This document shows positions 137-31,497 of a stretch of DNA of 64,000 nt, piece by piece. The stretch lies in IMG/VR virus record IMGVR_UViG_3300043444_000183, positions 1 to 64,000 of that record; one strand, written 5' to 3'. Within the stretch, counting starts at the first letter, position 1; every line of letters starts with the position of its first letter. The DNA is from a virus. Under the pieces are notes generated by a model. It ran no database searches. It saw nothing but the letters and a program-made list of their open reading frames with translations, and was not told the origin of the DNA. The translations under genes and the position numbers were made by a program.

Positions 137-3100
137 CGCACCTATAGCAAAGCCAAAAACTGAGGCACAGAAAAGAGAGCAAGAGTTATTTGATACTTCA
201 TTTAAAGCTCTTGAAAAGACAGATCCTGAGTACTTGAGAAGAAAGGCTCAGTCAGATGCTATTGACGCTAAGGTCAATCAGATCAACGCTGACTTCATAA
301 ATGACAATGAAGAAGATGTTGTGCCTAAAGTACAGCAGCTCATAAAAGACTATCCATATCTACAGGTCAATCAATCAGGCGCTGGTTATGACGAACTAGA
401 AATAGTAAACACAGTTACCAACGAGAGAAAGAAAATCAACCTAGAGAACTGGACGTCAGATAGGGATAAAGAAGAAGCCAAAATATTGAGTGGTTTCTTA
501 GATGTTCAGATGACATCAAAAGACTATGTCAACCAATACCAAAAGGTAAATAAGATAAAGGAGCAGATGCAATCAGCTACTCCTACACAAAGAATTGAAC
601 TATCTCAACAATTACTAGATGAGCAAGCTAAGTTACAAGACCTATCTGATGGTAGATATAACTATGCTAAAAATGACAAGTATAAGTCATCAGCCATTTA
701 CGACAAGAATGCAAAAGAGAATGTAAAGACAGACTTTGCTAGATTGCAACTTCAATCTATTGACTACGCAGAAAAAGCGAAAAGCTATGCTGAGTGGAAT
801 CAAACAGTAACTGAAGCTAGACAAAAGGGATTAATTACTGAAGAGCAATATCAGAACGATTACCTTCCTAAGTTAGCTCAAGAAAAAAATATGCTTGTTG
901 ATGAGCGTAATAAAATCAATGATGACTTTAGGCAAACCCAATACAACAGCACATCAATTGATCGAATAGCAGCTGATGAGTTTGCCATTCAGTCTGAAAG
1001 AGGTAACGTATTAACAGGCGCCACATATTCAGCATTGCAAGGTGCAGAGAACTCATTAAGATTCTTACTTGAGACAGGTGACTTTCAAGATGGTGAATTC
1101 AAGGGATTCTTGACAGGAGCTGCACCGGGATCAGTTAGTGATTTCTACACATCATCTGAAAACAGAAGCGCATTTGAGCAAATCATATTTGGTCTTGCTA
1201 ACTCAGGAGGGTCTGCACTAGTTGGTGCTGCTGCCGGTGTTCCATTCCTTGGTTTATATGCATCATCTTATGTAAGCACTAAAGACCAAATGAGTGGGCC
1301 TGAGTTTAAGGATGTGCCTGAATATCAAAAGATATTATTCTCAGGAGCACTTGGTGCTACAGTTGGTTTGCTAGAAAAGTATGGTATCAGTAAGTGGTTC
1401 TCAAAGACACCTGCGGGTAAAGGCCTTACTAATTGGGTGCTAAAGAAAACAGTTGCTGAACTAGGCAAGGATGCGTCTTCAGAAGCTATTGAGTTAGCTG
1501 TAAAGAAAAACTTGGGTGCAGCAATAACCAATGGACTTATTCAAGTTACATCAGCCGGATTGGTAGAAGGATCTACTGAATTAGCTCAAGAGGCTGCTGA
1601 CATGGTCTATAAGGATGTATTCAATAGAATGTCTGACAAAGGTCAGTTTGACAATCCAAAATCATGGGCCGGGGTTGCTGATCGATTAAGCCAATCATTC
1701 ATGCTTGGTTTTGCAGGTGGTGCTGGAATGCAATCTATCACACAGACATTACAAGTTGCAGCAGGTGAAATGAATAAGGCTCAGATAAATAGTATTGAGC
1801 AGCTTATCGATAGCCCTGAACTTAAAGATACGTTTAGACTCAACATTAAAGACCAAATACTTTCTGGTCAGATAACTAAACAGGAGGGCAAAGCAATTGC
1901 TGAGAGACTGAATGAAGTAGAGGGTACTCTTAATAAGATACCAAAGAATGTAGACCGTTATGAAGCGTTCAAGTTGATCAACGAGCGTGACGAAATAAAG
2001 AAAGAAATTGCAGGGAAAGACCCTGATCTTGTCGTCGTTCAGACTGAGCGAGTGGCAGAAATTAATGAACAACTAAAACAATTAAGCAAAGATGCCGTTC
2101 AAAAGCAAACAACAGGTGAAGTATCTGTACAGCCAGGAGCCCAAAGTGGCGGAGAAATGGCGCAAGGAAAACCAGAAGCAGGACCTCAAGAAGTTACCCA
2201 AGAAGGTCAGCAAGCCCAAGAAGAAGAGTTAAAAACAATTAATGATAGAATATTAAAGATTGAAGCTGCTAATAAAAGAGGTGAATTACTTGAAGATTCA
2301 CAACCGGGTGAATTAAAAAGGCTCAAGGATAGAAAAAAACAATTAGAGAAGCAATCAGAAGCTTCAAGAGTTGAGTTTGATATTAAAGCTAAAACATTAG
2401 AAGAACTTGAAAAAATTCAATTTGAAATAGAAGAGTCTAAAGATCCTAAAGATAGAAAGCTATTTAATGATATAGATAATGAACTTCAGAGTAGAGAATG
2501 GCAAAGCGTTATAAATGCTCCATTATCTGAGGTTAATGATGTATTAGATACTTTAATAGAAAAAAATAAAACCATGCCTAATGGCTTTGGCGCTTATATT
2601 GAAAACGCAGAAGCTAGAAAAGCAAAACAGGTTATCAATAAGTATTTAGGTGAAGTATCACGAGAAGAAGCTGTAAAGGACTTTAAAGATGCATTCTTTG
2701 GATCACCTTCATCTTACTATCCAGATGGATTGCAATTGAGAGAATCTGCTAGAGTTTACATAGAAAATGGTGGAAGTATTAAAGATCTTCTTCAAAATAT
2801 TTCTAGTGAATTTATTTCTGATGGATTTACAGAGGAAGATGCAGCAAATGTAATAAGTCGTAAGCTAGGACAAGTAGCTAAAACAAATTTGCAAGAAACA
2901 GAAAAAACAATTAATTTAGCCGCAGATGAAAAAGGAAACATACAACCCGAACGCGCCGGAGACGGAAGAGGACGGACTGAGAGCAGGAAATTTACGCCTC
3001 TTGAAGGTGCGCCGTCAGTTCCAGGCATTAACGGGCCGGACCCACAACTTGTTGCCGTTGCAGAACAATACGCAGCAGACAATGGAATCGACCTCAAAAG

Positions 3101-6100
3101 ACAGTCAGAATACGTCGAAGTAGATGAGGATCGAGCTAGGAGAATTGCCGATGCTTACGAGCAGATGGCTGACGATCCACAGAATCCAAAAGTAAAAGAG
3201 GCTTATCAAGATCTTGTAAACCAAACAATAGCACAATACCAAGCTTTGGTAGATGCAGGTTATAAGTTTTGGTTCATGGATTTAAACATACCAAGCAATG
3301 CTGAGTATGCGTCTACTCCATATAATGCGCTAAGAGACCTTAGACAGAACAAAGAGATGGGTGTATTCCCAACTGCTGATGGATATGGAGAAGAAGGGAT
3401 AACACAAGAGCAGAGAGAAAATAATCCGCTACTGCAAGATACAGGTATTATGTGGCCTGTAGGTGGTTTAGATGGCGAGATGATGCCGGTACTAGCAAAT
3501 GATTTATTCAGGGCTGTACACGATACATTTGGACATGGTTTAGAAGGTGCTGGTTTCAGAGCAAGAGGAGAAGAAAATGCATGGCAGGCTCACGTTAGAT
3601 TGTTTACAGGGCCAGCTGTTGGAGCCATAACAAGTGAGACAAGAGGTCAGAACTCTTGGTTGAACTATGGTCCTTTTGGAGAAGCTAATAGAACAGCTAA
3701 AGTAGATGACACTGTATTTGCTGATCAAAAGATTGGCCTTATGCCTGAGTGGACTTGGACCGAAGGTCGTGCGGGTGATATGGAAGTTGATATCATGGAA
3801 GCTGATACCACTAAGCAAAGTAACTTACAGAAAGTACTTGACACACTAGATAAAATTGAAAAAGATCTTGACCAGTTTGGAAAGGAAACACTAGGTGTAA
3901 ATATTCCGGTTGCATTAGCCAAGACAATTGTCAAGGCAGTTAAAGCGCTTGTTAAGGCAGGCGTATCACTTGAGCAAGCAATCAAAAAAGTTGCCGCTGA
4001 GAACAACCTATCTGAAAGAGAGGTAAGTTCATTACTTAAACCAACAAAAGTATCTGAAATAGATGTTAACGAGGTAAGAGCTAAAGCTAGACCTGGAAAG
4101 CGTATATCAAAAGGATTATCAGTTAAAACAGTTGACCGTAAAAAGGTTATTGAAGAAACTGAAGACTTATCTATAGAATACGTTAAGAAAAATGCGCCAA
4201 AAGCATTTGTTTCTAATGCCAATATCATTGCTAAATACCCATTAATTGCCGGTAAAAAGAAGTTTAAAACAGCAACAACAGTTGAGCAGGCTCAAGAGAT
4301 ATATGACGTATTTGTTAGAGAAGTAGCTGACAACCTAAACTACTTAATGGCTGAATTTAAGCCAGAGTACAGAGAGATATCAACTCTTTGGTATGATGGA
4401 GCGAATGCTATAGCAAATGATTTTGCTACGCAATTTGGTGTATCAGCAGAACAGGCAGCAGGTATAATAGCGGCTATGTCTCCTCAAAAAGATTGGTATC
4501 AAAATGTTCGATTGGCAGAGATGGTGTTAATGGCCTATAAAGATAATCCAGTCATGACTAAGGAAATGATTGATTATCAAAAGGGCGTAAACGAAAAAGG
4601 TCTTTATGATGGAGCTAAATCAGCTGGCAAAAAATTAAAAAAGGCACAAAAAGAATACAGCGAATCTAGAACTAAAGCCAATAAAGAAGCCTTAGAAGAG
4701 GCAAAAGTTAACATGCAAAAAGCTATTGAAAAAGCTGACGCTGTAATAACTATGCTTAATAAATATGTAGGTAAAAAATTAAATGAAGTTCCTGCATTTG
4801 TTCAACCATATATGGTGAGAACATATCACGAGGTAAATACTACTAAAGATTACAATATTGTAGCTCCAGATGGTAGTGTTCAAGGTGTTGCAAAAAAGAA
4901 CAATGGATCTAAAGCCAAAGTTGCATGGGGATCTTATAGTGAGATTGGAAAGGCAGTTGCTATTAAAAATGACGGTAGCCAAGAAAATATCACAAGATCT
5001 TTAGGCGAGATGCATAAGATCAGAAATTTCTATAATAACATCATTGATCCAATGAGTAAAGATGGTGATGTTACCATGGATACACATGCGATCGCAGCAG
5101 CATTATTGTTACCTTTATCTGGTAAATCAACTCAAGTTGGTCAAAATTTTGGTACCAAAACCGCAAACTCTGCACCTCTTGGTATTAAAGGTCTTTACTA
5201 CGCTTATGCTGATGCTTATGCATTGGCTGCTAAAGAAGCAGGATTACTTCCAAGACAGGTACAAAGTATTACTTGGGAGGCTGTGCGCGGTTTATATACA
5301 GACACGTTTAAAGGAAATAAAGCTGAAGTAGCAAAAATTAATAATATTTGGAAAGACTATCAAGATGGAAAAATTACAATCGATGAAGCAAGAGAACAAG
5401 CCAAGCAATCAGCCGGTGGCATCAAAGACCCAACCTGGGCAGGAGGACCTCTTCAAGAAGAGCCTGGAGGAAGCGTTGGGCAGGAAAGTGTCAGCGGAAG
5501 AGGTGAAGGAGATGGACGCAATATTGTCGGGGATAGACCTGGAAGGGAGATATTAACAGCAGACACCAAAGATAAAGCAATTCTAAAAAAAGCACTTGAC
5601 TTTTTAGATAAAGCTGATAAAGACTTAGGAAAGTTTGGTAAAGAAACACTTGGTATTAATATACCAGTTGCAACTCTTCAAGCTATTGTTAAATTAGCTA
5701 AGGCATTAGTAAAAACAGGATTAACGTTACAAGAAGCCATCATCAAAGCGGCTGAACAGAAAAATGTATCCACTCAGGATGCATTGAATGCAATTATGTT
5801 TATGTCTGAGACTATCAAGCAACCTATCAAAAAGGTTCTTGTTAGTGAAGCAGCAGCCCTTAAATCACAACTTAGATTAGAAGCCAGAGCAGCGCGAGAG
5901 GCTAAGATGGATCTAAATGCTAAACGTAAGGCATTGGTTTCAGCTATATCAGCTATGGTTAAGGATGGTAAAATATCCACTCGTCAATCAAAATCAATCA
6001 TCAATAAGGTTGGTAAAGTAAACCTGGACAACCCGATTATGGTTGAGCGATTGATCAATTATGCTGAGAAGGTATTCCAAAGAGCTGACTACCAAGAAAG

Positions 6101-9100
6101 ATTGTCTGAGGCATCTAAAATCAGAAAGTCAATCAGACGTGCATTGAAGTCCAAAGAACTTCAGGCTGAGGTTGTTGGTATGGCTAAGATGTTTACAAAA
6201 GTTGATCCTTTCTTAGTTGAAAACATTGATCAATACATCTCAAACGCAGAGAACGTTCTAAATGCAGTCCGACCTGTAAGAGGTACTGAAGTTGCTATTA
6301 GACAAGCAGCTGACATTGAAGCCATCAATGAGTTCACTATGGAGCAGATTGAGCTTCAGGAAAAGAACAAGAAAGCTGAGTTAATGTCTGTACACAGCTA
6401 TTTAGTTGAATCTGGTGCTATAACTGAAGACATGACTTCTAAAGAAATGCAGGAGATCATTGACATCATTAGCACTAAAGAAGATGAGATTAACGACCCC
6501 GATAAGAAGATGAACTTCTTGAAAAATCGTTTTGAGTTCATGTCTGGTATCATAGAAAAGATGATTGTGAACAACGAAGATCCGTTCACAGAAGAGTCAC
6601 TTGATCTTACACCAAGACAAAAAGAATTAATGGGACAGCTGTTGAAAATTGACATGGATAGATTGTCAGTTAAACAGGCTGCGTTAGTTCTTGAGGCTAT
6701 GGATAACTTCATGAATAACGGTATCACAAGTGGTGTCGAGGCAGTCGTTAAGAACTACCAAGGCACACTTAATGCTGATCGATTGGCTGCTTCAGGAAAG
6801 AGATCAAGACCACTTAAGATGTATTTCAATAAAGGGATTGGTAAGTTATTTGGAGAGCAATTTGTATCGCTTCCGCTACTCATTGAGCGCATGTTCCCAG
6901 GGATGAAGAATGGTCTGAAGCTTATGTCAGACATGGGACTTACCGATGTTATTAGAGGTGCAGCAAAGGCTGACTATGAGCACAAGCAATTGGTTAAGCA
7001 ATATACTGAGCAAGGATTCTATAAGCAGAAAGGTTTTATGAATGCAGAGAATGTATACGAAAGAGGTATGCTTGCATTCTTAAGTAGAAATTTAATTGGC
7101 ACCGAGACAGAAAGACGAAATGAGTTTACACGTCGCGTCAAAATTATTGAGGAGTCAATTAAAGAACTAGAGGCTGGGTCAGCTGCTGAAGTAAAGATGG
7201 CAGATCTATATCAAAAGGCATATGACAAGTTAAAAGTATCTGAGCGTGATATTGATGTCATCAAGGCAAATGCTGAGCAGATGAACTTAGATGCAGTTGA
7301 TTGGATGACAAATCAATGGGCTTCGAAGTATGACCAACTTGCTGACGTTAGCTTAGCTGTATACAACTCAATTCTTGGTAGTGATACCAACTATACGCCA
7401 GATAGATATAAAGGCTTAGAAGGGGCTGATTTAGAGCTAGACGAAGACTTATTAAGCAGAGGTAGCGCATTCATGTCGTCACTTGATTATACCAATAAAA
7501 ACAAGTCAGGTGTATTGATTGAGACGACAAGACCTAAGAACTTACCGAAAAACAGATTTATCAGTCTTGATTTTGATACCAATAACTTTGCAAGTCTTAA
7601 AGGCGCAATGATTGACATTGAGACCGCTCCATCTATTCGTCAAGTAGATGGTTTCTTAAAGTCTGATGGTTATAAGAAAATGGTAAATGGTGATGATCGT
7701 AGAATTCTTACCTCTAGGATCAACAACTATATATCGTCAGTAAAGGGTAAGACAAACTTCAACAGAGATACACTTAAATCAGTTGAGCGTTTAGCTAACT
7801 TCCTTGGATCTTTAGGTGTTGGTAAGGCATTAGGTGGATTAGATCAGGTTGTAAAACAAACGACACCTGTTATTGTCAACACAATGATTAATGCTGGGAG
7901 ATTCACTCCATTAAACATGGAAATGAACGAGGCAATTAATAGAAGTGGAATGCCTATAGCTAATCGTGGTATTGAGTCCATTACAGCTGTTGAATCAATT
8001 GACTCATTGATTGACAAGAAATCAACGACAGCAGCAGAAGCTGTTAAGTTTGTTGAGAAGATTAGTCAGATGTACATGAAGGCGCTACTAGCTAAACCAG
8101 ATGTGTGGGTAGCAAGGTCATCATTTGTCACATACTATCAGAAGTATCTACGTGATAATGGAATGGATACTGATATTGATTGGAAAGATCATGAGTGGAA
8201 CAAAGAAGCCATGGAGTATGCTCAGATGATGGTTGACCGTCAGCAGAATATCTCAGACGAGAAACTTGCTGGTAAATTCTTGTCATCTAGAGATCCAATG
8301 ATTAGCGTGGCAAGAAAGGTTGTATTCCCATTTGCTACGTTTATTCTCAACCAAAAGGCGCGTATGCATAATGACTTTATCGCATTGTTTGGTAGCGATG
8401 TATCAACAGAGGATAGAGCAAAAGCTGTTAAATCATTAGGAGGTCTAGCTGCTGAGATGATTACATACCAAGCTATTGCATACTTTATCAAGACAATGGT
8501 ATACGATAATATTGCGGCATACATTGTAGGAGACGAAGAGGAAGAAGAGAAAAAAGAACGTTCATTCTTTGGTATCAAGATGACAAAGAAGCAATGGAAC
8601 GCAACTAAATTCCCTGTAAAAAGCTTTGTGTCTGACCTATTATCTCCGCTTCCACTTACAGATGACTTGGTGTCATTTGGATTTGATACAATGATGGAGA
8701 ACTTCCCAATGATTACTCAAGAGGAAATAACTCAATCAATAAAAGATCAAAACGATGCTAGAGCACTTAGAGGTCAGGAGCCAATGAATGCTGAGCAAGA
8801 AGCCAACTTCACTGAAAAACTTAAGCAGCAAAATATATACTCAGTTACATTTAAAAATGATGGAGCAGGTAGAGCTTACGGTGTCCCAGGTATTGCGTTT
8901 GATACATACATGGAGCTTGCAGAGATGGGTAGAATGGCAACTACAGGTGAGTTCACTGAGGACATTGGATACGGACCAAAAACTAAATACCTTACCAAAG
9001 AAGGTCAGGAATTAGTTAAGTACATGACAATACCAATGGTATTATACTCTACAGGTCTTGTACCAAAAGACTTCGGTACTGTTGCTAGAAAGGTTGTGAG

Positions 9101-9389
9101 TTCGGCTAAAAAGAAAGCTATTAGTGAGACCAAGAATAAGAACATAGGACTTCTTAAAGAAGAACTTGGTCGCAAGCCAAATGAGTGGGAGAAAAATCTT
9201 GTCATGAATACTGATAAGAGACTGACAGGTCTTGTTGATGCGATTAAGTTTGCTGAAAGATTTGGAGGGTTAACACCTGAGCAAGGAGCTGAGTATGTCA
9301 AACTAATTGAGAAGACTGGTGACTACGACTACCTAAATCTAAAAAGAATTCAGGACGGAGAAACAGCCGATCAAATATTAAAGAAGTAA
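1..9389 (+). CDS. Giant polyvalent virion protein, 3' part (gene starts at 63579)
   Basis: The frame is open from base 3 and joins in frame with the ORF starting at 63579 across the circular junction, giving 3224 residues in all. In full-length numbering, hydrophobic Gly/Ala-rich segments lie near 489-556. Charged Gln/Glu-rich linkers follow. A conserved phage domain near 1150-1360 contains H1269-D-T-F-G-H1274-G and later ETRGQN and DQK motifs. A second domain near 1510-1900 has MSPQKDW (from 1588) and D1789-T-H-A. Two copies of a segment of about 75 residues flank that domain. The rest is long and helical, with a hydrophobic stretch near 2911-2948 followed by an acidic run, like the C-terminal domain of other giant phage proteins (LPD38-type, from memory). 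Such polyvalent proteins are usually packaged and ejected with DNA. Its place last in the tail module fits that role, which is inferred. No RNA polymerase signature (DxDGD) was seen. Confidence 0.85.
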   Translation, partial: FPLSKGDVQGRIDSLEKNAVSLEQYGFETEPRKEKPLKYTAAPAPAPIAKPKTEAQKREQELFDTSFKALEKTDPEYLRRKAQSDAIDAKVNQINADFINDNEEDVVPKVQQLIKDYPYLQVNQSGAGYDELEIVNTVTNERKKINLENWTSDRDKEEAKILSGFLDVQMTSKDYVNQYQKVNKIKEQMQSATPTQRIELSQQLLDEQAKLQDLSDGRYNYAKNDKYKSSAIYDKNAKENVKTDFARLQLQSIDYAEKAKSYAEWNQTVTEARQKGLITEEQYQNDYLPKLAQEKNMLVDERNKINDDFRQTQYNSTSIDRIAADEFAIQSERGNVLTGATYSALQGAENSLRFLLETGDFQDGEFKGFLTGAAPGSVSDFYTSSENRSAFEQIIFGLANSGGSALVGAAAGVPFLGLYASSYVSTKDQMSGPEFKDVPEYQKILFSGALGATVGLLEKYGISKWFSKTPAGKGLTNWVLKKTVAELGKDASSEAIELAVKKNLGAAITNGLIQVTSAGLVEGSTELAQEAADMVYKDVFNRMSDKGQFDNPKSWAGVADRLSQSFMLGFAGGAGMQSITQTLQVAAGEMNKAQINSIEQLIDSPELKDTFRLNIKDQILSGQITKQEGKAIAERLNEVEGTLNKIPKNVDRYEAFKLINERDEIKKEIAGKDPDLVVVQTERVAEINEQLKQLSKDAVQKQTTGEVSVQPGAQSGGEMAQGKPEAGPQEVTQEGQQAQEEELKTINDRILKIEAANKRGELLEDSQPGELKRLKDRKKQLEKQSEASRVEFDIKAKTLEELEKIQFEIEESKDPKDRKLFNDIDNELQSREWQSVINAPLSEVNDVLDTLIEKNKTMPNGFGAYIENAEARKAKQVINKYLGEVSREEAVKDFKDAFFGSPSSYYPDGLQLRESARVYIENGGSIKDLLQNISSEFISDGFTEEDAANVISRKLGQVAKTNLQETEKTINLAADEKGNIQPERAGDGRGRTESRKFTPLEGAPSVPGINGPDPQLVAVAEQYAADNGIDLKRQSEYVEVDEDRARRIADAYEQMADDPQNPKVKEAYQDLVNQTIAQYQALVDAGYKFWFMDLNIPSNAEYASTPYNALRDLRQNKEMGVFPTADGYGEEGITQEQRENNPLLQDTGIMWPVGGLDGEMMPVLANDLFRAVHDTFGHGLEGAGFRARGEENAWQAHVRLFTGPAVGAITSETRGQNSWLNYGPFGEANRTAKVDDTVFADQKIGLMPEWTWTEGRAGDMEVDIMEADTTKQSNLQKVLDTLDKIEKDLDQFGKETLGVNIPVALAKTIVKAVKALVKAGVSLEQAIKKVAAENNLSEREVSSLLKPTKVSEIDVNEVRAKARPGKRISKGLSVKTVDRKKVIEETEDLSIEYVKKNAPKAFVSNANIIAKYPLIAGKKKFKTATTVEQAQEIYDVFVREVADNLNYLMAEFKPEYREISTLWYDGANAIANDFATQFGVSAEQAAGIIAAMSPQKDWYQNVRLAEMVLMAYKDNPVMTKEMIDYQKGVNEKGLYDGAKSAGKKLKKAQKEYSESRTKANKEALEEAKVNMQKAIEKADAVITMLNKYVGKKLNEVPAFVQPYMVRTYHEVNTTKDYNIVAPDGSVQGVAKKNNGSKAKVAWGSYSEIGKAVAIKNDGSQENITRSLGEMHKIRNFYNNIIDPMSKDGDVTMDTHAIAAALLLPLSGKSTQVGQNFGTKTANSAPLGIKGLYYAYADAYALAAKEAGLLPRQVQSITWEAVRGLYTDTFKGNKAEVAKINNIWKDYQDGKITIDEAREQAKQSAGGIKDPTWAGGPLQEEPGGSVGQESVSGRGEGDGRNIVGDRPGREILTADTKDKAILKKALDFLDKADKDLGKFGKETLGINIPVATLQAIVKLAKALVKTGLTLQEAIIKAAEQKNVSTQDALNAIMFMSETIKQPIKKVLVSEAAALKSQLRLEARAAREAKMDLNAKRKALVSAISAMVKDGKISTRQSKSIINKVGKVNLDNPIMVERLINYAEKVFQRADYQERLSEASKIRKSIRRALKSKELQAEVVGMAKMFTKVDPFLVENIDQYISNAENVLNAVRPVRGTEVAIRQAADIEAINEFTMEQIELQEKNKKAELMSVHSYLVESGAITEDMTSKEMQEIIDIISTKEDEINDPDKKMNFLKNRFEFMSGIIEKMIVNNEDPFTEESLDLTPRQKELMGQLLKIDMDRLSVKQAALVLEAMDNFMNNGITSGVEAVVKNYQGTLNADRLAASGKRSRPLKMYFNKGIGKLFGEQFVSLPLLIERMFPGMKNGLKLMSDMGLTDVIRGAAKADYEHKQLVKQYTEQGFYKQKGFMNAENVYERGMLAFLSRNLIGTETERRNEFTRRVKIIEESIKELEAGSAAEVKMADLYQKAYDKLKVSERDIDVIKANAEQMNLDAVDWMTNQWASKYDQLADVSLAVYNSILGSDTNYTPDRYKGLEGADLELDEDLLSRGSAFMSSLDYTNKNKSGVLIETTRPKNLPKNRFISLDFDTNNFASLKGAMIDIETAPSIRQVDGFLKSDGYKKMVNGDDRRILTSRINNYISSVKGKTNFNRDTLKSVERLANFLGSLGVGKALGGLDQVVKQTTPVIVNTMINAGRFTPLNMEMNEAINRSGMPIANRGIESITAVESIDSLIDKKSTTAAEAVKFVEKISQMYMKALLAKPDVWVARSSFVTYYQKYLRDNGMDTDIDWKDHEWNKEAMEYAQMMVDRQQNISDEKLAGKFLSSRDPMISVARKVVFPFATFILNQKARMHNDFIALFGSDVSTEDRAKAVKSLGGLAAEMITYQAIAYFIKTMVYDNIAAYIVGDEEEEEKKERSFFGIKMTKKQWNATKFPVKSFVSDLLSPLPLTDDLVSFGFDTMMENFPMITQEEITQSIKDQNDARALRGQEPMNAEQEANFTEKLKQQNIYSVTFKNDGAGRAYGVPGIAFDTYMELAEMGRMATTGEFTEDIGYGPKTKYLTKEGQELVKYMTIPMVLYSTGLVPKDFGTVARKVVSSAKKKAISETKNKNIGLLKEELGRKPNEWEKNLVMNTDKRLTGLVDAIKFAERFGGLTPEQGAEYVKLIEKTGDYDYLNLKRIQDGETADQILKK
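3807..4040 (+). repeat. Internal protein repeat, copy A
   Basis: This stretch encodes a segment of about 75 residues containing FGKETLG-x-NIPVA, then IVK, KALVK and an AI-x-K-x-A helix. It reappears at 5565-5800 in the same protein. It sits directly after the HDTFGHG domain. Confidence 0.8.
5565..5800 (+). repeat. Internal protein repeat, copy B
   Basis: Second copy of the segment at 3807-4040, again with FGKETLG-x-NIPVA and KALVK-x-G. It sits directly after the SPQKDW domain and a Gly/Glu/Arg-rich linker, so domain plus repeat looks like a duplicated module boundary. Confidence 0.8.
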
Positions 9390-14389: not shown

Positions 14390-14804
14390 CTACAAATGTA
14401 GATGTTTTTTCATAAATACCCAACTTCAACCTGCGTTTTATTCTTAAAAATTCTTCCAACCATTTAGCCTCTAAAATATCTTGTTCTAGATTGTACTCTT
14501 TTTTTCTTCTGTATGTTCCTGCGCTGTGCATAAACTTACTGTCTCCTAGATAATCAGCCACACACTTGGTCTCTGATGCATACACAGCATCTCTAAACCT
14601 AATCATGTCGCTATGCATGCGAAGGCCGTGAAATATACTTGCATGATTTTTTCCAAATACTTCAGCCGTCTGCATTAGGTTTAAGCCTGCCTCTCGTAGC
14701 TCGTTGTAGATGTAGTATCTCTTGTATACCAGCTCTCTCTTTCTTAATTTATTCTTTAGTCCATGAATTTCAATGAAGTCATGTATTAATGCTAGTCTGT
14801 TCAT
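14289..14804 (-). CDS. DnaA domain IV-like DNA-binding protein
   Basis: Residues about 25-65 (YKRYYIYNELREAGLNLMQ, then a helix ending in HASIFHGLRMH) follow the helix-turn-helix pattern of the DnaA C-terminal domain, which binds DnaA boxes. There is no AAA+ domain. A second protein of this kind is encoded at 19691-20080. A role in origin recognition or recruiting host DnaA is inferred. The final part overlaps the VRR-NUC gene by 101 bases and may be poorly constrained. Confidence 0.6.
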   Translation of the reverse strand: MNRLALIHDFIEIHGLKNKLRKRELVYKRYYIYNELREAGLNLMQTAEVFGKNHASIFHGLRMHSDMIRFRDAVYASETKCVADYLGDSKFMHSAGTYRRKKEYNLEQDILEAKWLEEFLRIKRRLKLGIYEKTSTFVGDRAADTSEANQEPREGGLLCAEVISNKQAGNS

Positions 14805-15888
14805 AGTCTTTCTTAAAAATGTTTAACGTATAACTTCTTTTACTCTTAACAGCCTTGTAGATCTTATCCTCTATTCCGCCCACACTGAATATCCAATACA
14901 CTTTATTAAATTTTCTTTCCATGGTTGTCATTCTGTCTTTTGCTTGAAAATAAGACGTCGCGCTGAAGTCAATGTTGTAGAATACCACATAGTCAGCGTT
15001 CTTGAGCGATATGCCCTCGCGGCCCGATACAATCTGCAATGCTATCACTTGACACTTACCTGCGTCGAATTCTTCCAAGCTCTCAGTCAATTGATCACCA
15101 TACACCTGCTTTAAAGCCTTTAACTCAGCTTTAAACTTATAAAATACACCAATCCTATTGGTCGCAAATCGCGACCTTATAAACTCAGCCTTTGTGGTAT
15201 CAATTACCATGCTATTGCCACTCTCAAACTTCACAGTGCCACTGCATAACTGGTGCACCTTTTGCATCAACTTAACCGGCGTGTCGGCCAAAATAACTTC
15301 TTCCCGGCCCTCCACAACCAAGTCGCGCTCTAACTTCTTCACAATCATCTTTGTCTTCTCAGACATGTCGACATAAATAATTTCCTCCTCGATTGACGTC
15401 TCAAACCCTGACTGCTGCTGCGTATGACTGATCATTAGATAGGCGAGTTTAGTCATGATGTCGATCTCCCTTCCGTTCGAGTACTCAGTTACCTTAAAAC
15501 CATTGATCACCCGGTCAAACTTAATGACGTAGTCATCTGCCCATCGGTAGAAGTTCTTGTACTCACGGAATGGCGAGTAGTCGCTTACCCAGAACTGATG
15601 GTACATCTGTGAGTATGACTCTGGGCATGGTGTACCTGATAGAAAGATCATTGGCAAATGACCAAACATCTTCTTAAACATCTTAGTGTACAACCCAGGC
15701 TTAGGGAAGGCACCACAATTATGGACTAATATACCGTTTGCTAAGTAATTATGATTATCCTCAACTTCTATATCATAGACATAACCATCTGGACACAATT
15801 CTCTAATTCTTTCTGTATCTGAGAGTTTGTAAATCTCAATACTTTCCACCCTTTCAAAGCTAACAGTTTGTTCTTTCTTTCGTCGCAT
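14779..15888 (-). CDS. C-intein plus C-terminal half of SF2 helicase
   Basis: Residues 1-57 are a C-terminal split-intein fragment: VYDIEVEDNHNYLANG, then I-L-V-H-N57, followed by Cys58 as the +1 residue. The C-extein begins CGAFPKPG. It carries SF2 helicase motif III (S-G-T-P at 84-87) and, near the C-terminus, motifs V and VI (SGREGISL, QAKDRMT). Joined to the 102-residue N-extein encoded at 16426-16998, it would give a SNF2-like helicase of about 414 residues. Its ATG lies inside the homing endonuclease gene in another frame, with an A-rich leader. Function as an active helicase requires trans-splicing. Confidence 0.9.
   Translation of the reverse strand: MRRKKEQTVSFERVESIEIYKLSDTERIRELCPDGYVYDIEVEDNHNYLANGILVHNCGAFPKPGLYTKMFKKMFGHLPMIFLSGTPCPESYSQMYHQFWVSDYSPFREYKNFYRWADDYVIKFDRVINGFKVTEYSNGREIDIMTKLAYLMISHTQQQSGFETSIEEEIIYVDMSEKTKMIVKKLERDLVVEGREEVILADTPVKLMQKVHQLCSGTVKFESGNSMVIDTTKAEFIRSRFATNRIGVFYKFKAELKALKQVYGDQLTESLEEFDAGKCQVIALQIVSGREGISLKNADYVVFYNIDFSATSYFQAKDRMTTMERKFNKVYWIFSVGGIEDKIYKAVKSKRSYTLNIFKKDYEQTSINT
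15718..15888 (-). other. C-intein fragment (57 residues)
   Basis: This covers the intein C-terminal blocks, ending His-Asn just before the Cys +1 codon at 15717-15715. Both the penultimate His and terminal Asn needed for splicing are present. Confidence 0.9.
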
Positions 15889-16445
15889 TCTTTTACTTTT
15901 AATGAGTTATGACTAATTCCATCCACTTCTATTGCAATCATGTGATATTTTGATGCAATGTCAATTTTATAGTGCCTTGGAGATTTAAATTGTTTTGCTA
16001 AGTGACCTGTCTTCTCTATATACTCCATTGAAAATGAAGAATCTAATTCAGATATCTTATTATATAGCATTAATTGATGGACAGTCGCACCGCGCCCATT
16101 GCCACCCTGAATAGCAGGCTTATGGTTAATCTCCTTTTGTCTTTCAGACGCTTTTAACCTATGTTCTTCATAGAACATTGGATTATTCTTTTTCATTCTT
16201 TCTGAAGACAACTTTCCTTGGCAAGAAATTGAACAAACTTTACCTTTAGAAAACGGTTGTCTTTGAAAATTAGATCCACATACAATGCACGTTGAATTTA
16301 ATATTTTGTGCATATTATCTTTAGATCCATATGAATGAATTAATTGAGAGCATTTTGCACTACATCCATTTCCTTTTAATTTTCCAATTAAAAAATTATA
16401 TACCTGACTATCTGTTAATTCTTTATCACACCACTTGCAATTCAT
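15768..16445 (-). CDS. Vsr/DUF559-like free-standing homing endonuclease
   Basis: The ATG at 16445 overlaps the stop of the N-intein gene by 20 bases and gives a 225-residue product; a longer frame from 16529 is possible. The N-terminal half has two zinc-finger-like units (CKWC...CSAKC and CIVC...CSISC) and a NUMOD3-like NNPMFYEEHR segment. The C-terminal half is a PD-(D/E)XK domain of Vsr type: KIDIA, IAIEVDGISH, D-E-R-K and GWKVLRF. Its end overlaps the C-intein gene by 121 bases. Position between intein halves marks it as the homing nuclease of this split intein. Confidence 0.85.
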   Translation of the reverse strand: MNCKWCDKELTDSQVYNFLIGKLKGNGCSAKCSQLIHSYGSKDNMHKILNSTCIVCGSNFQRQPFSKGKVCSISCQGKLSSERMKKNNPMFYEEHRLKASERQKEINHKPAIQGGNGRGATVHQLMLYNKISELDSSFSMEYIEKTGHLAKQFKSPRHYKIDIASKYHMIAIEVDGISHNSLKVKECDERKNKLLALKGWKVLRFTNSQIQKELENCVQMVMSMI

Positions 16446-16998
16446 CTGTGGGTAATATTTCTCTAGCTTTAACCCATCCACGCTTTGTAAATATTTCGTG
16501 GTTTTCGGTGCATATGATTTCTTTTCCATTACATCTTATTTTAACTAAACTTTCTGTTAATTTATTTTTGAATACATTTTTAACTTGTTTGTATTCATAA
16601 CATTTTTTTTCAAAGTTAAAACTTTTTTTAAAATCTCCAACATTTATGTTCTTTATCTCAACTCCATCGATTAGAGTGTTTCCTAAAAAACACCTATGAT
16701 GTTCATCATGTATCACTACGTCGTAGTCATTAGATGGTAGTTTATGCATCGACTCATCATTAATGACATCAATGTGGTATGTATGACCAAACTCCTTGTA
16801 GTCATCAAGTATTGATCCGATAGCTTTCTTTTTAGTAAGGAACAACACCCTCTTAGCGCCAAACCTATTAGCTATCTCTAAGGAGGTGCTGGTCTTACCA
16901 GTTCTCACCTCCATGGCTAGATATACAATGTTGTGCTTAAGTAGTGTGTATGTTGCTTTCTCAGCTATATCAATTTGATAGCTTCTTAGCTGCTTCAT
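16426..16998 (-). CDS. N-terminal half of SF2 helicase plus N-intein
   Basis: Residues 1-102 are the helicase N-extein, with Walker A V-R-T-G-K35-T and motif II D98-E-H-H. The intein begins at Cys103 (CFLGNTLIDG), immediately after the DEHHR motif, a conserved ATPase site typical of intein insertion. Block B (CTENHEIF) has the Thr-x-x-His of Hint domains. The frame ends with two consecutive stops (TGA, TAA), so it is not one continuous gene with a sequencing slip. The rest of the helicase is encoded at 14779-15888 in the same frame phase but separated by stops. Confidence 0.9.
   Translation of the reverse strand: MKQLRSYQIDIAEKATYTLLKHNIVYLAMEVRTGKTSTSLEIANRFGAKRVLFLTKKKAIGSILDDYKEFGHTYHIDVINDESMHKLPSNDYDVVIHDEHHRCFLGNTLIDGVEIKNINVGDFKKSFNFEKKCYEYKQVKNVFKNKLTESLVKIRCNGKEIICTENHEIFTKRGWVKAREILPTDELQVV
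16429..16692 (-). other. N-intein fragment (88 residues)
   Basis: Runs from catalytic Cys1 (codon 16692-16690) to the stop. It contains splicing blocks A and B, including the TxxH motif, and lacks any endonuclease domain. Confidence 0.88.
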
Positions 16999-29902: not shown

Positions 29903-29910
29903 TATTTTTG
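29903..29910 (+). promoter_or_regulatory. Candidate promoter -7 box TATTTTTG
   Basis: TAnnTTTG match in AT-rich DNA after the terminator and 18 bases before the groEL ATG. The -33 element is not clear. Confidence 0.45.
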
Positions 29911-29928
29911 TGGTATAAATCTAATAAA

Positions 29929-31497
29929 ATGGTAGTAAAACATGTTCATTTAGGCGATGAAGGTCGCAAAAAGCTCATTAAAGGCATCAAAACGATCGCT
30001 GGAGCAGTAAAAAGCACATTAGGTGCGCGAGGACGCACTGTTCTCATTGAATCAGAGCATCATGTGGGTGGTATCACGGTCACAAAGGACGGTGTAACGG
30101 TCGCTAAGTCGATCAATCTATATGACCCGGTTGAGAACTTGGCTGTTATGATGGTCAGACAGGCTGCTGAGAAGACAGCAACCGTTGCAGGTGATGGCAC
30201 CACGACAAGTGTGGTCTTAGCTGAGGCTATTGTTGATGCAGCTGAGGAGGTACTCTCTTCGGATGACAACGTCACTGAGGTAATTCGTGAGATTAATCAA
30301 ATTACTGACAAGGTTGTCAGTAACCTAACCAAGCGATCAAAGAAGTTATCAGGCAAGAAGCTCCGCGATGTGGCTTCAATTAGTGCAAACAATGACACTG
30401 AGATTGGTGGTATGATCGCTGACGCGTTCAGTGAGGTCAAGATGGTGTCAGTTGAGAACAGTAAGGACCATAACACATACGTTGAGGTGATAAAGGGGAT
30501 CAAGGCTGACCGTGGTTGGACTAGTCGTCACTTTATTACTGACTACAAGCGTCAAGAGGCTGTGTTGGACAACCCATACGTGTTGATCACTGACCAAGAG
30601 ATCAGTAATTTGTTGAACATTGAGAGAATCCTACAGCACATTGTAGCGCAGAACAAGCCATTACTTATCATTGGTGAATTGAGCCCTGCTGCACTTAATA
30701 CGCTGAATATCAACGTGGTCCAGGGTAAAATAAAGGCTTGTAACATCCTGCCTCCAAACTTCGGGTACCGTCAGAAAGACTTACTAGAGGATCTAGCAAT
30801 CGCTTTGGACGGCACATACTTCAGTGAGGACACTGGTGATGACCTATCGCTTATTGACGTGACACACCTGGGTAGATGCGCCAAGGTAATCGTTGGTAAG
30901 GATAATACGATCTTTATGCCTTATGCTAGCTCTCAAGATAGCATAGACAATAGAATCACCGATATCACCGAGACAATCTTCGAGAGCGTAAGCAAAGAAG
31001 AGACTGACTTCCGTAAGGAGAGAGCTGCCAACCTATCAGGTGGTGTTGCTGTCATCTATGTTGGAGCGTTAAGTGACATCGAGCAGAAGGAGAAGAAGGA
31101 CCGCATTGACGACGCTGTGTGTGCTGTTGAGGCGGCCTTAGAGGAGGGTATTCTCCCTGGTGGTGGTGTAGCATTGTTCAACGAGGCAACAGAGCTTGGA
31201 CGCAGCGAAATCACTCCTGCATTAAATATTATGATCAAGGCTTTGAGAGCTCCAATGTGGCAGATCATCACAAACGCAGGTAAGGACGCATATAGTATCA
31301 TGGATGGAATCATGCCAATCCCTAACGAGGGCTATGACGTGAAGGCTGAGCAGTACGTTGATATGATCAAGGCTGGTATTGTTGACCCAACGAAGGTGAC
31401 AAAGAACGCCCTGTTAAACGCTGTGTCGGTCGCTACGACAATCTTAAGTACAAACGCTATCATTACAAATATCAGAGCAGATGAGAGTACTAAATAA
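29929..31497 (+). CDS. groEL: Phage GroEL-type group I chaperonin
   Basis: The 522-residue product aligns by eye along the whole GroEL length. The ATP site G88-D-G-T-T-T matches GDGTTT of GroEL, and the equatorial DDAVCAVEAALEEG then LPGGG (near 404-413) matches the signature before the Gly-rich loop. The start at 29929 is the ATG after an A-rich leader. The Gly-Gly-Met tail of bacterial GroEL is missing; the protein ends with charged residues. It should form a folding chamber, probably for capsid or tail proteins, which is inferred. The co-chaperonin gene overlaps by 17 bases. Confidence 0.95.
   Translation: MVVKHVHLGDEGRKKLIKGIKTIAGAVKSTLGARGRTVLIESEHHVGGITVTKDGVTVAKSINLYDPVENLAVMMVRQAAEKTATVAGDGTTTSVVLAEAIVDAAEEVLSSDDNVTEVIREINQITDKVVSNLTKRSKKLSGKKLRDVASISANNDTEIGGMIADAFSEVKMVSVENSKDHNTYVEVIKGIKADRGWTSRHFITDYKRQEAVLDNPYVLITDQEISNLLNIERILQHIVAQNKPLLIIGELSPAALNTLNINVVQGKIKACNILPPNFGYRQKDLLEDLAIALDGTYFSEDTGDDLSLIDVTHLGRCAKVIVGKDNTIFMPYASSQDSIDNRITDITETIFESVSKEETDFRKERAANLSGGVAVIYVGALSDIEQKEKKDRIDDAVCAVEAALEEGILPGGGVALFNEATELGRSEITPALNIMIKALRAPMWQIITNAGKDAYSIMDGIMPIPNEGYDVKAEQYVDMIKAGIVDPTKVTKNALLNAVSVATTILSTNAIITNIRADESTK

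Follow-up and report, generated by a model that had tools for sequence, protein, structure and literature searches.

The window analysed here (positions 1 to 64,000 of the 64,051-base IMG/VR virus record IMGVR_UViG_3300043444_000183, which carries terminase, portal and tail genes) contains a superfamily 2 (SF2) helicase gene that lies in two pieces on the minus strand. It is very probable, in our assessment, that a mobile split intein interrupts the gene, that both of its halves are overlapped in the +1 frame by the gene for its own homing endonuclease, and that this arrangement derives from a continuous intein in which the nuclease was overprinted. With somewhat less confidence, we regard it as likely that in a widespread class of phage inteins the homing endonuclease has a gene of its own, overprinted on a continuous intein in the +1 frame and found most often at the Walker B motif of helicases or other ATPases, and that split inteins of the fractured type can be born directly from this class, without insertion of a gene between the halves.

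The window and its relatives bear on the origin of natural split inteins and fractured genes and suggest a route by which split inteins can arise. Apparently ancestral (continuous, with an overprinted nuclease) and derived (split) forms both occur in phages, inserted at almost the same motif of helicases, and the transition is therefore directly testable. The split halves may also prove useful as new protein-ligation tools.

Layout of the locus

Three minus-strand genes form a chain of mutual overlaps: open reading frame (ORF) 1 at 16998-16426, a nuclease gene at 16445-15768 and ORF3 at 15888-14779. ORF1 and ORF3 share a phase (16998 minus 15888 is 1110, a multiple of 3), while the nuclease is read in the +1 frame. 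The first gene encodes the helicase N-extein (16998-16693, 102 residues), with the Walker A region VRTGKT and the motif II sequence DEHH, followed by the N-terminal intein half (IntN; 16692-16429, 88 residues), which runs from Cys103 to DELQVV and is closed by the double stop TGA TAA at 16428-16423. The third opens with the C-terminal intein half (IntC; 15888-15718, 57 residues from the ATG), ending in ILVHN, and continues from the +1 Cys codon (15717-15715) into the helicase C-extein (15717-14779, 312 residues). Between them, the EDxHD/Vsr-type nuclease gene encodes 225 residues and matches Pfam DUF559 (3e-11); it shares 20 bases with the end of ORF1 (16445-16426, ATGAATTGCAAGTGGTGTGA) and 121 double-coding bases with the start of IntC (15888-15768).

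This layout is more than a chance arrangement of reading frames, since Pfam families match all three genes. ORF1 matches ResIII (1.9e-7) and Intein_splicing (2e-7, profile positions 9-93), and ORF3 matches Intein_splicing (2.3e-8, profile positions 124-155) and Helicase_C (4.4e-7); the two exteins also match PHROG 62, a DNA helicase family, at 6e-12 and 3e-41, respectively. The mechanical ORF list had placed the nuclease start at 16529. We rejected that start, whose residues 1-28 are IntN DNA read in another frame, and adopted the ATG at 16445, the homologous place being used in relatives. With this conserved start, the initial annotation's overlaps of 20 and 121 bases are correct, as are the coordinates it gave for three overlapping leftward genes, the shared phase of the helicase parts and the two consecutive stops. 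The N-intein from Cys103 and the C-intein ending in His-Asn before Cys can be read directly in the sequence, and the exteins sum to the anticipated product of 414 residues (102 + 312).

The intein halves

Scored separately, the two halves reach 31.4 and 34.5 bits against Intein_splicing, for which the Pfam cut-off of 35.8 applies to the whole domain. The characteristic residues of a class 1 intein are present (Cys1, the block B TxxH, the terminal Asn and a +1 Cys), and the first three of these do not vary among the relatives. When the intein of the window was read through and modelled with AlphaFold, the predicted local distance difference test score (pLDDT) was about 90 or more at residues 1-90 and approximately 276-325, with disorder between, and structural matches of the model in the PDB were to inteins and HINT domains. 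The stop of ORF1 falls after intein residue 88 and the ATG of IntC at residue 269, so the breaks flank both folded halves; the ordered part of IntC begins at about 15867. The model thus predicts that the two encoded halves fold as one HINT domain, and the Pfam matches to both halves, the modelled fold and the lack of a continuous frame together support the split intein proposed in the initial annotation.

Purifying selection acts on all parts of the locus, strongly so on the exteins: the ratio of non-synonymous to synonymous substitution rates (dN/dS) is approximately 0.09 for the N-extein against locus L082, and 0.23 for IntN and 0.21 for the nuclease against locus L084. Across the overlap of IntC and nuclease, DNA identity is 83-93% in the part encoding the IntC core and 63-67% in DNA that encodes the nuclease alone, as double coding predicts. 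These observations bear on the possibility that the helicase fragments are never spliced, acting instead as a two-subunit enzyme or decaying as a dispensable gene. Splicing is itself our inference and each half holds only part of the helicase motifs; against this, both intein halves are conserved, their catalytic residues are invariant, the +1 Cys is confined to intein carriers, and the purifying selection on the exteins argues against decay. We consider unspliced fragments very unlikely.

The nuclease

The nuclease model (pLDDT 81) finds its best PDB match in the homing endonuclease I-Bth0305I (3r3p), with a TM-score of 0.71 on the target, a probability of 1.00, an E-value of 5e-3 and a sequence identity of 18%. 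Residues E173, D175, H179 and D188 are invariant in the nuclease alignment. The enzyme had been called a zinc-finger/NUMOD3-like/Vsr-type nuclease; the Vsr-like part of that description is borne out by the fold and the EDxHD residues, and the NUMOD3-like part, judged by eye only, is not, there being no NUMOD family among the Pfam matches of the nuclease.

The match to I-Bth0305I, a member of the EDxHD homing endonucleases, could be taken to suggest that the element is an RNA intron which splices itself and carries a homing gene, as these enzymes have been reviewed among those of group I introns (PMC3943268). Both intein halves are, however, present and conserved as protein, and no Rfam family, catalytic intron RNA included, reached its gathering threshold in the window or in loci L084, L095, L134 and L143. 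An intron at this site is thus exceedingly improbable.

The break is shared among relatives

The same fractured layout was found in loci L082/L083, L084, L100, L103, L104 and L105, which we count as six lineages whose nucleases are under 90% identical to one another. Nuclease identity to the window is 100% for L082 and L083, 70% for L084, 62% for L100, 60% for L103, 56% for L105 and 53% for L104. In all of these relatives the end of IntN coincides with the beginning of the nuclease, the place of the stop being fixed while its sequence varies (the window, L082, L084 and L100 end IntN in DELQVV followed by the stop). In five of the six lineages IntC begins at the same ATG, behind a conserved A-rich leader and exactly 121 bases short of the nuclease gene's end. 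This ATG derives from a nuclease Cys codon (GAATGCGAC, Glu-Cys-Asp), a position occupied by Gln, Ile or Ala in those continuous relatives that were inspected.

Programmed frameshifting, with a +1 shift near 16430 and a return near 15860, would yield a single IntN-nuclease-IntC precursor capable of splicing in cis. As such a scheme would need, no stop interrupts the nuclease frame, which extends into both halves, and the phases of ORF1 and ORF3 match. It would also need two shifts in opposite directions, with no canonical slippery heptamer seen by eye at the locus, and it leaves unexplained that IntN is complete at its stop, that IntC has its own conserved ATG, and that a nuclease ATG is conserved at the end of IntN. 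We therefore hold frameshifting to be very unlikely and retain the split intein as our preferred reading.

Across the nuclease gene, the fractured clade has 144 stops in the intein frame, compared with 157 expected from synonymous shuffles, so this frame retains no constraint. The window alone has 24 such stops, and no open host frame thus spans the insert. One alternative is an error of assembly or sequencing, or an ordinary continuous intein that mutation has recently inactivated; it gains some plausibility from the close kin of the nuclease that sit in continuous inteins. It would have to account for about 24 stops rather than one, and for the same arrangement in six lineages on independent contigs, with neutral stop counts; we rejected it as having next to no probability. 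A continuous frame in relatives had been named as the sign of such an error. Instead, the 77 related helicases readable at the site are intein-free, and every relative with this intein at this site is broken alike, with neutral numbers of stops. On this comparison the break is both real and old, and the fractured SF2 helicase of the initial annotation stands, with the host gene in two ORFs, each with half an intein.

One further locus, L171, was at first scored as fractured. It was set aside for its single frameshift near IntC beside an open close relative (L149); at L171:4640-4670 an overprinted intein carries the frameshift just upstream of IntC, which may be an error or early decay.

Empty sites and mobility

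Eighty related helicase loci were surveyed for empty sites, of which 77 could be read through the site without an intein, two carry one (L030 and L057) and one is a fragment. The +1 residue is Cys in none of the 77 intein-free relatives (Phe in 62) and in all intein carriers; either the Cys travels with the intein, or the intein requires it. Comparison with L082 indicates movement: the inteins are 98.6% identical and both exteins 80%, with sharp edges, and synonymous divergence is 0.02-0.12 in the intein parts as against 1.1-1.5 in the exteins. Near-identical inteins in diverged helicases indicate that the cassette was recently transferred between them.

Overprinted relatives in continuous inteins

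When cultured phages were searched with the nuclease, the matches fell in genes annotated as helicases, in the wrong frame. Vibrio phages CP-T1, 159E43 and 1.088.O, Pseudomonas phage MR14 and Corynebacterium phage phi673 each have a single open helicase frame comprising IntN, a long unrelated stretch and IntC, with the nuclease gene in the +1 frame of the stretch between the halves. In CP-T1, MR14 and phi673 the annotation of these genes gives no more than helicase or hypothetical protein, and the hidden nuclease genes have thus been missed.

An alignment search gave 68 distinct nucleases, of which 56 are overprinted in continuous inteins, six are fractured, one is fused in frame (L092) and five are unclassified. 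In the 56 overprinted loci, no stop occurs in the intein frame where 640 would be expected, while the third frame, which served as a control, has 1325 stops against 1230 expected. Between near pairs, the nuclease protein is more conserved than the linker translated in the intein frame, and most changes are at nuclease third positions. The nuclease is thus the selected protein, whereas selection on the linker acts chiefly to keep its frame open. The overprinted inteins are nearly always inserted at DE/C...N/CH, inside Walker B and mostly in helicases; the clade of the window is inserted three residues further, at DExHx/C. Judged by flanking motif only, overprinted inteins also occur in clamp-loader-like hosts (L159:3697-4716 and L172:1300-2406, LLDEAH/C) and in a terminase-like host (L120:3134-4015, W/CEEAQ).

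In the nuclease tree, the fractured loci group together as a single clade (support 100) that falls among the overprinted ones. The direction from overprinted to split is favoured because the reverse would need some 25 stops to be lost from an unconstrained frame. Most likely, therefore, the triple overlap was inherited from an overprinted intein rather than produced by a gene inserted between two halves.

Two of the unclassified nucleases, L134 and L143, look free-standing. That of L134 adjoins an intein-free SF2 helicase, overlapping the start of its ORF (L134:1513-3370), possibly a collaborative-homing arrangement. At L092:2507-4675, the intein of a phage head-type protein contains, in frame, a distantly related nuclease as a fused domain, which is the ordinary bifunctional layout.

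A proposed route to a split intein

We propose that the ancestor was a continuous intein whose linker frame was kept open over an out-of-frame nuclease gene. An internal ATG upstream of IntC would have allowed this half to be made alone, whereupon the linker frame, released from constraint, would have accumulated stops; the overprinted intein probably became split in this manner. At present, ORF1 and ORF3 would be translated as separate proteins, IntN and IntC would associate into one HINT domain, and acyl shifts via Cys103 and the +1 Cys, followed by cyclisation of the last Asn, would release the 414-residue helicase. The nuclease, presumably translated separately from its own start, would cut intein-free helicase alleles near DEHHR/F, and repair would copy the whole cassette including the +1 Cys codon, a transfer already visible in the near-identical inteins described above.

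Several points weigh against this interpretation. Firstly, both intein halves score slightly below the curated Pfam cut-off, and the nuclease tree is weak at its root and in many of its branches. Secondly, the ATG of IntC lies at a different place in L105. Thirdly, Shine-Dalgarno support at the nuclease start is modest in the overprinted relatives and absent in the fractured clade; a match of four or more was found at 24 of 56 hidden-gene starts, compared with 10-19 in shifted controls, a signal which is suggestive but not decisive. Lastly, we infer both trans-splicing and cleavage from sequence.

Phage context

A contig from the bin of a Lacinutrix genome carries a relative of the cassette; together with the BT4734-like type of the neighbouring primase, this makes a host among the Bacteroidota likely. 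Elsewhere on the plus strand, the window encodes a GroEL chaperonin (29908-31497; PHROG 5725, 1e-129) and, at its start, an open reading frame of 3051 residues (234-9389).

Comparison with known systems

Fractured genes with split inteins were reportedly described by Dassa et al. in 2009. These systems, gp41-1 among them, share with the window a host gene in two pieces, each with half an intein, and a homing endonuclease gene between. In 17 of the 18 gp41-1 loci which we compared in IMG/VR, the halves do not overlap the nuclease as they do in the window, and a spacer of about 40 bases follows IntN. Where present, the nuclease is GIY-YIG-like; further genes may intervene, and IntC may lie in any of three phases. 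Here, by contrast, both halves share bases with the nuclease gene, the phase does not vary and the interrupted gene encodes an SF2 helicase. In two gp41-1 loci (L180:4001-4918 and L182:4001-4918) the halves are only about 200 bases apart and no nuclease gene lies between them, the nuclease having seemingly been lost.

The nuclease shares the Vsr-like catalytic-domain fold and the E-D-H-D residues of I-Bth0305I and the EDxHD homing endonucleases. Unlike I-Bth0305I, with which it is only 18% identical, the family described here has genes that lie within inteins or overlap them, read in the +1 frame, and a Cys-rich N-terminal region. Ordinary bifunctional inteins likewise combine a HINT domain (C1, TxxH, the terminal Asn and a +1 nucleophile) with a nuclease that promotes mobility; here the nuclease is a separate, overlapping gene, the in-frame form being represented by L092.

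The nearest precedent for overprinting is the ShiLan domain which, together with other out-of-frame HNH insertions, has been found in phage methylases with signs of mobility (PMC11855218). As in the overprinted relatives, a nuclease is hidden out of frame in an insert while the host frame stays open. The ShiLan element differs in that its nuclease is of the HNH rather than the EDxHD type, no splicing domain was found in it, and its host frame is unbroken (PMC11855218), whereas the insert described here is a true intein and, in the window, a split one.
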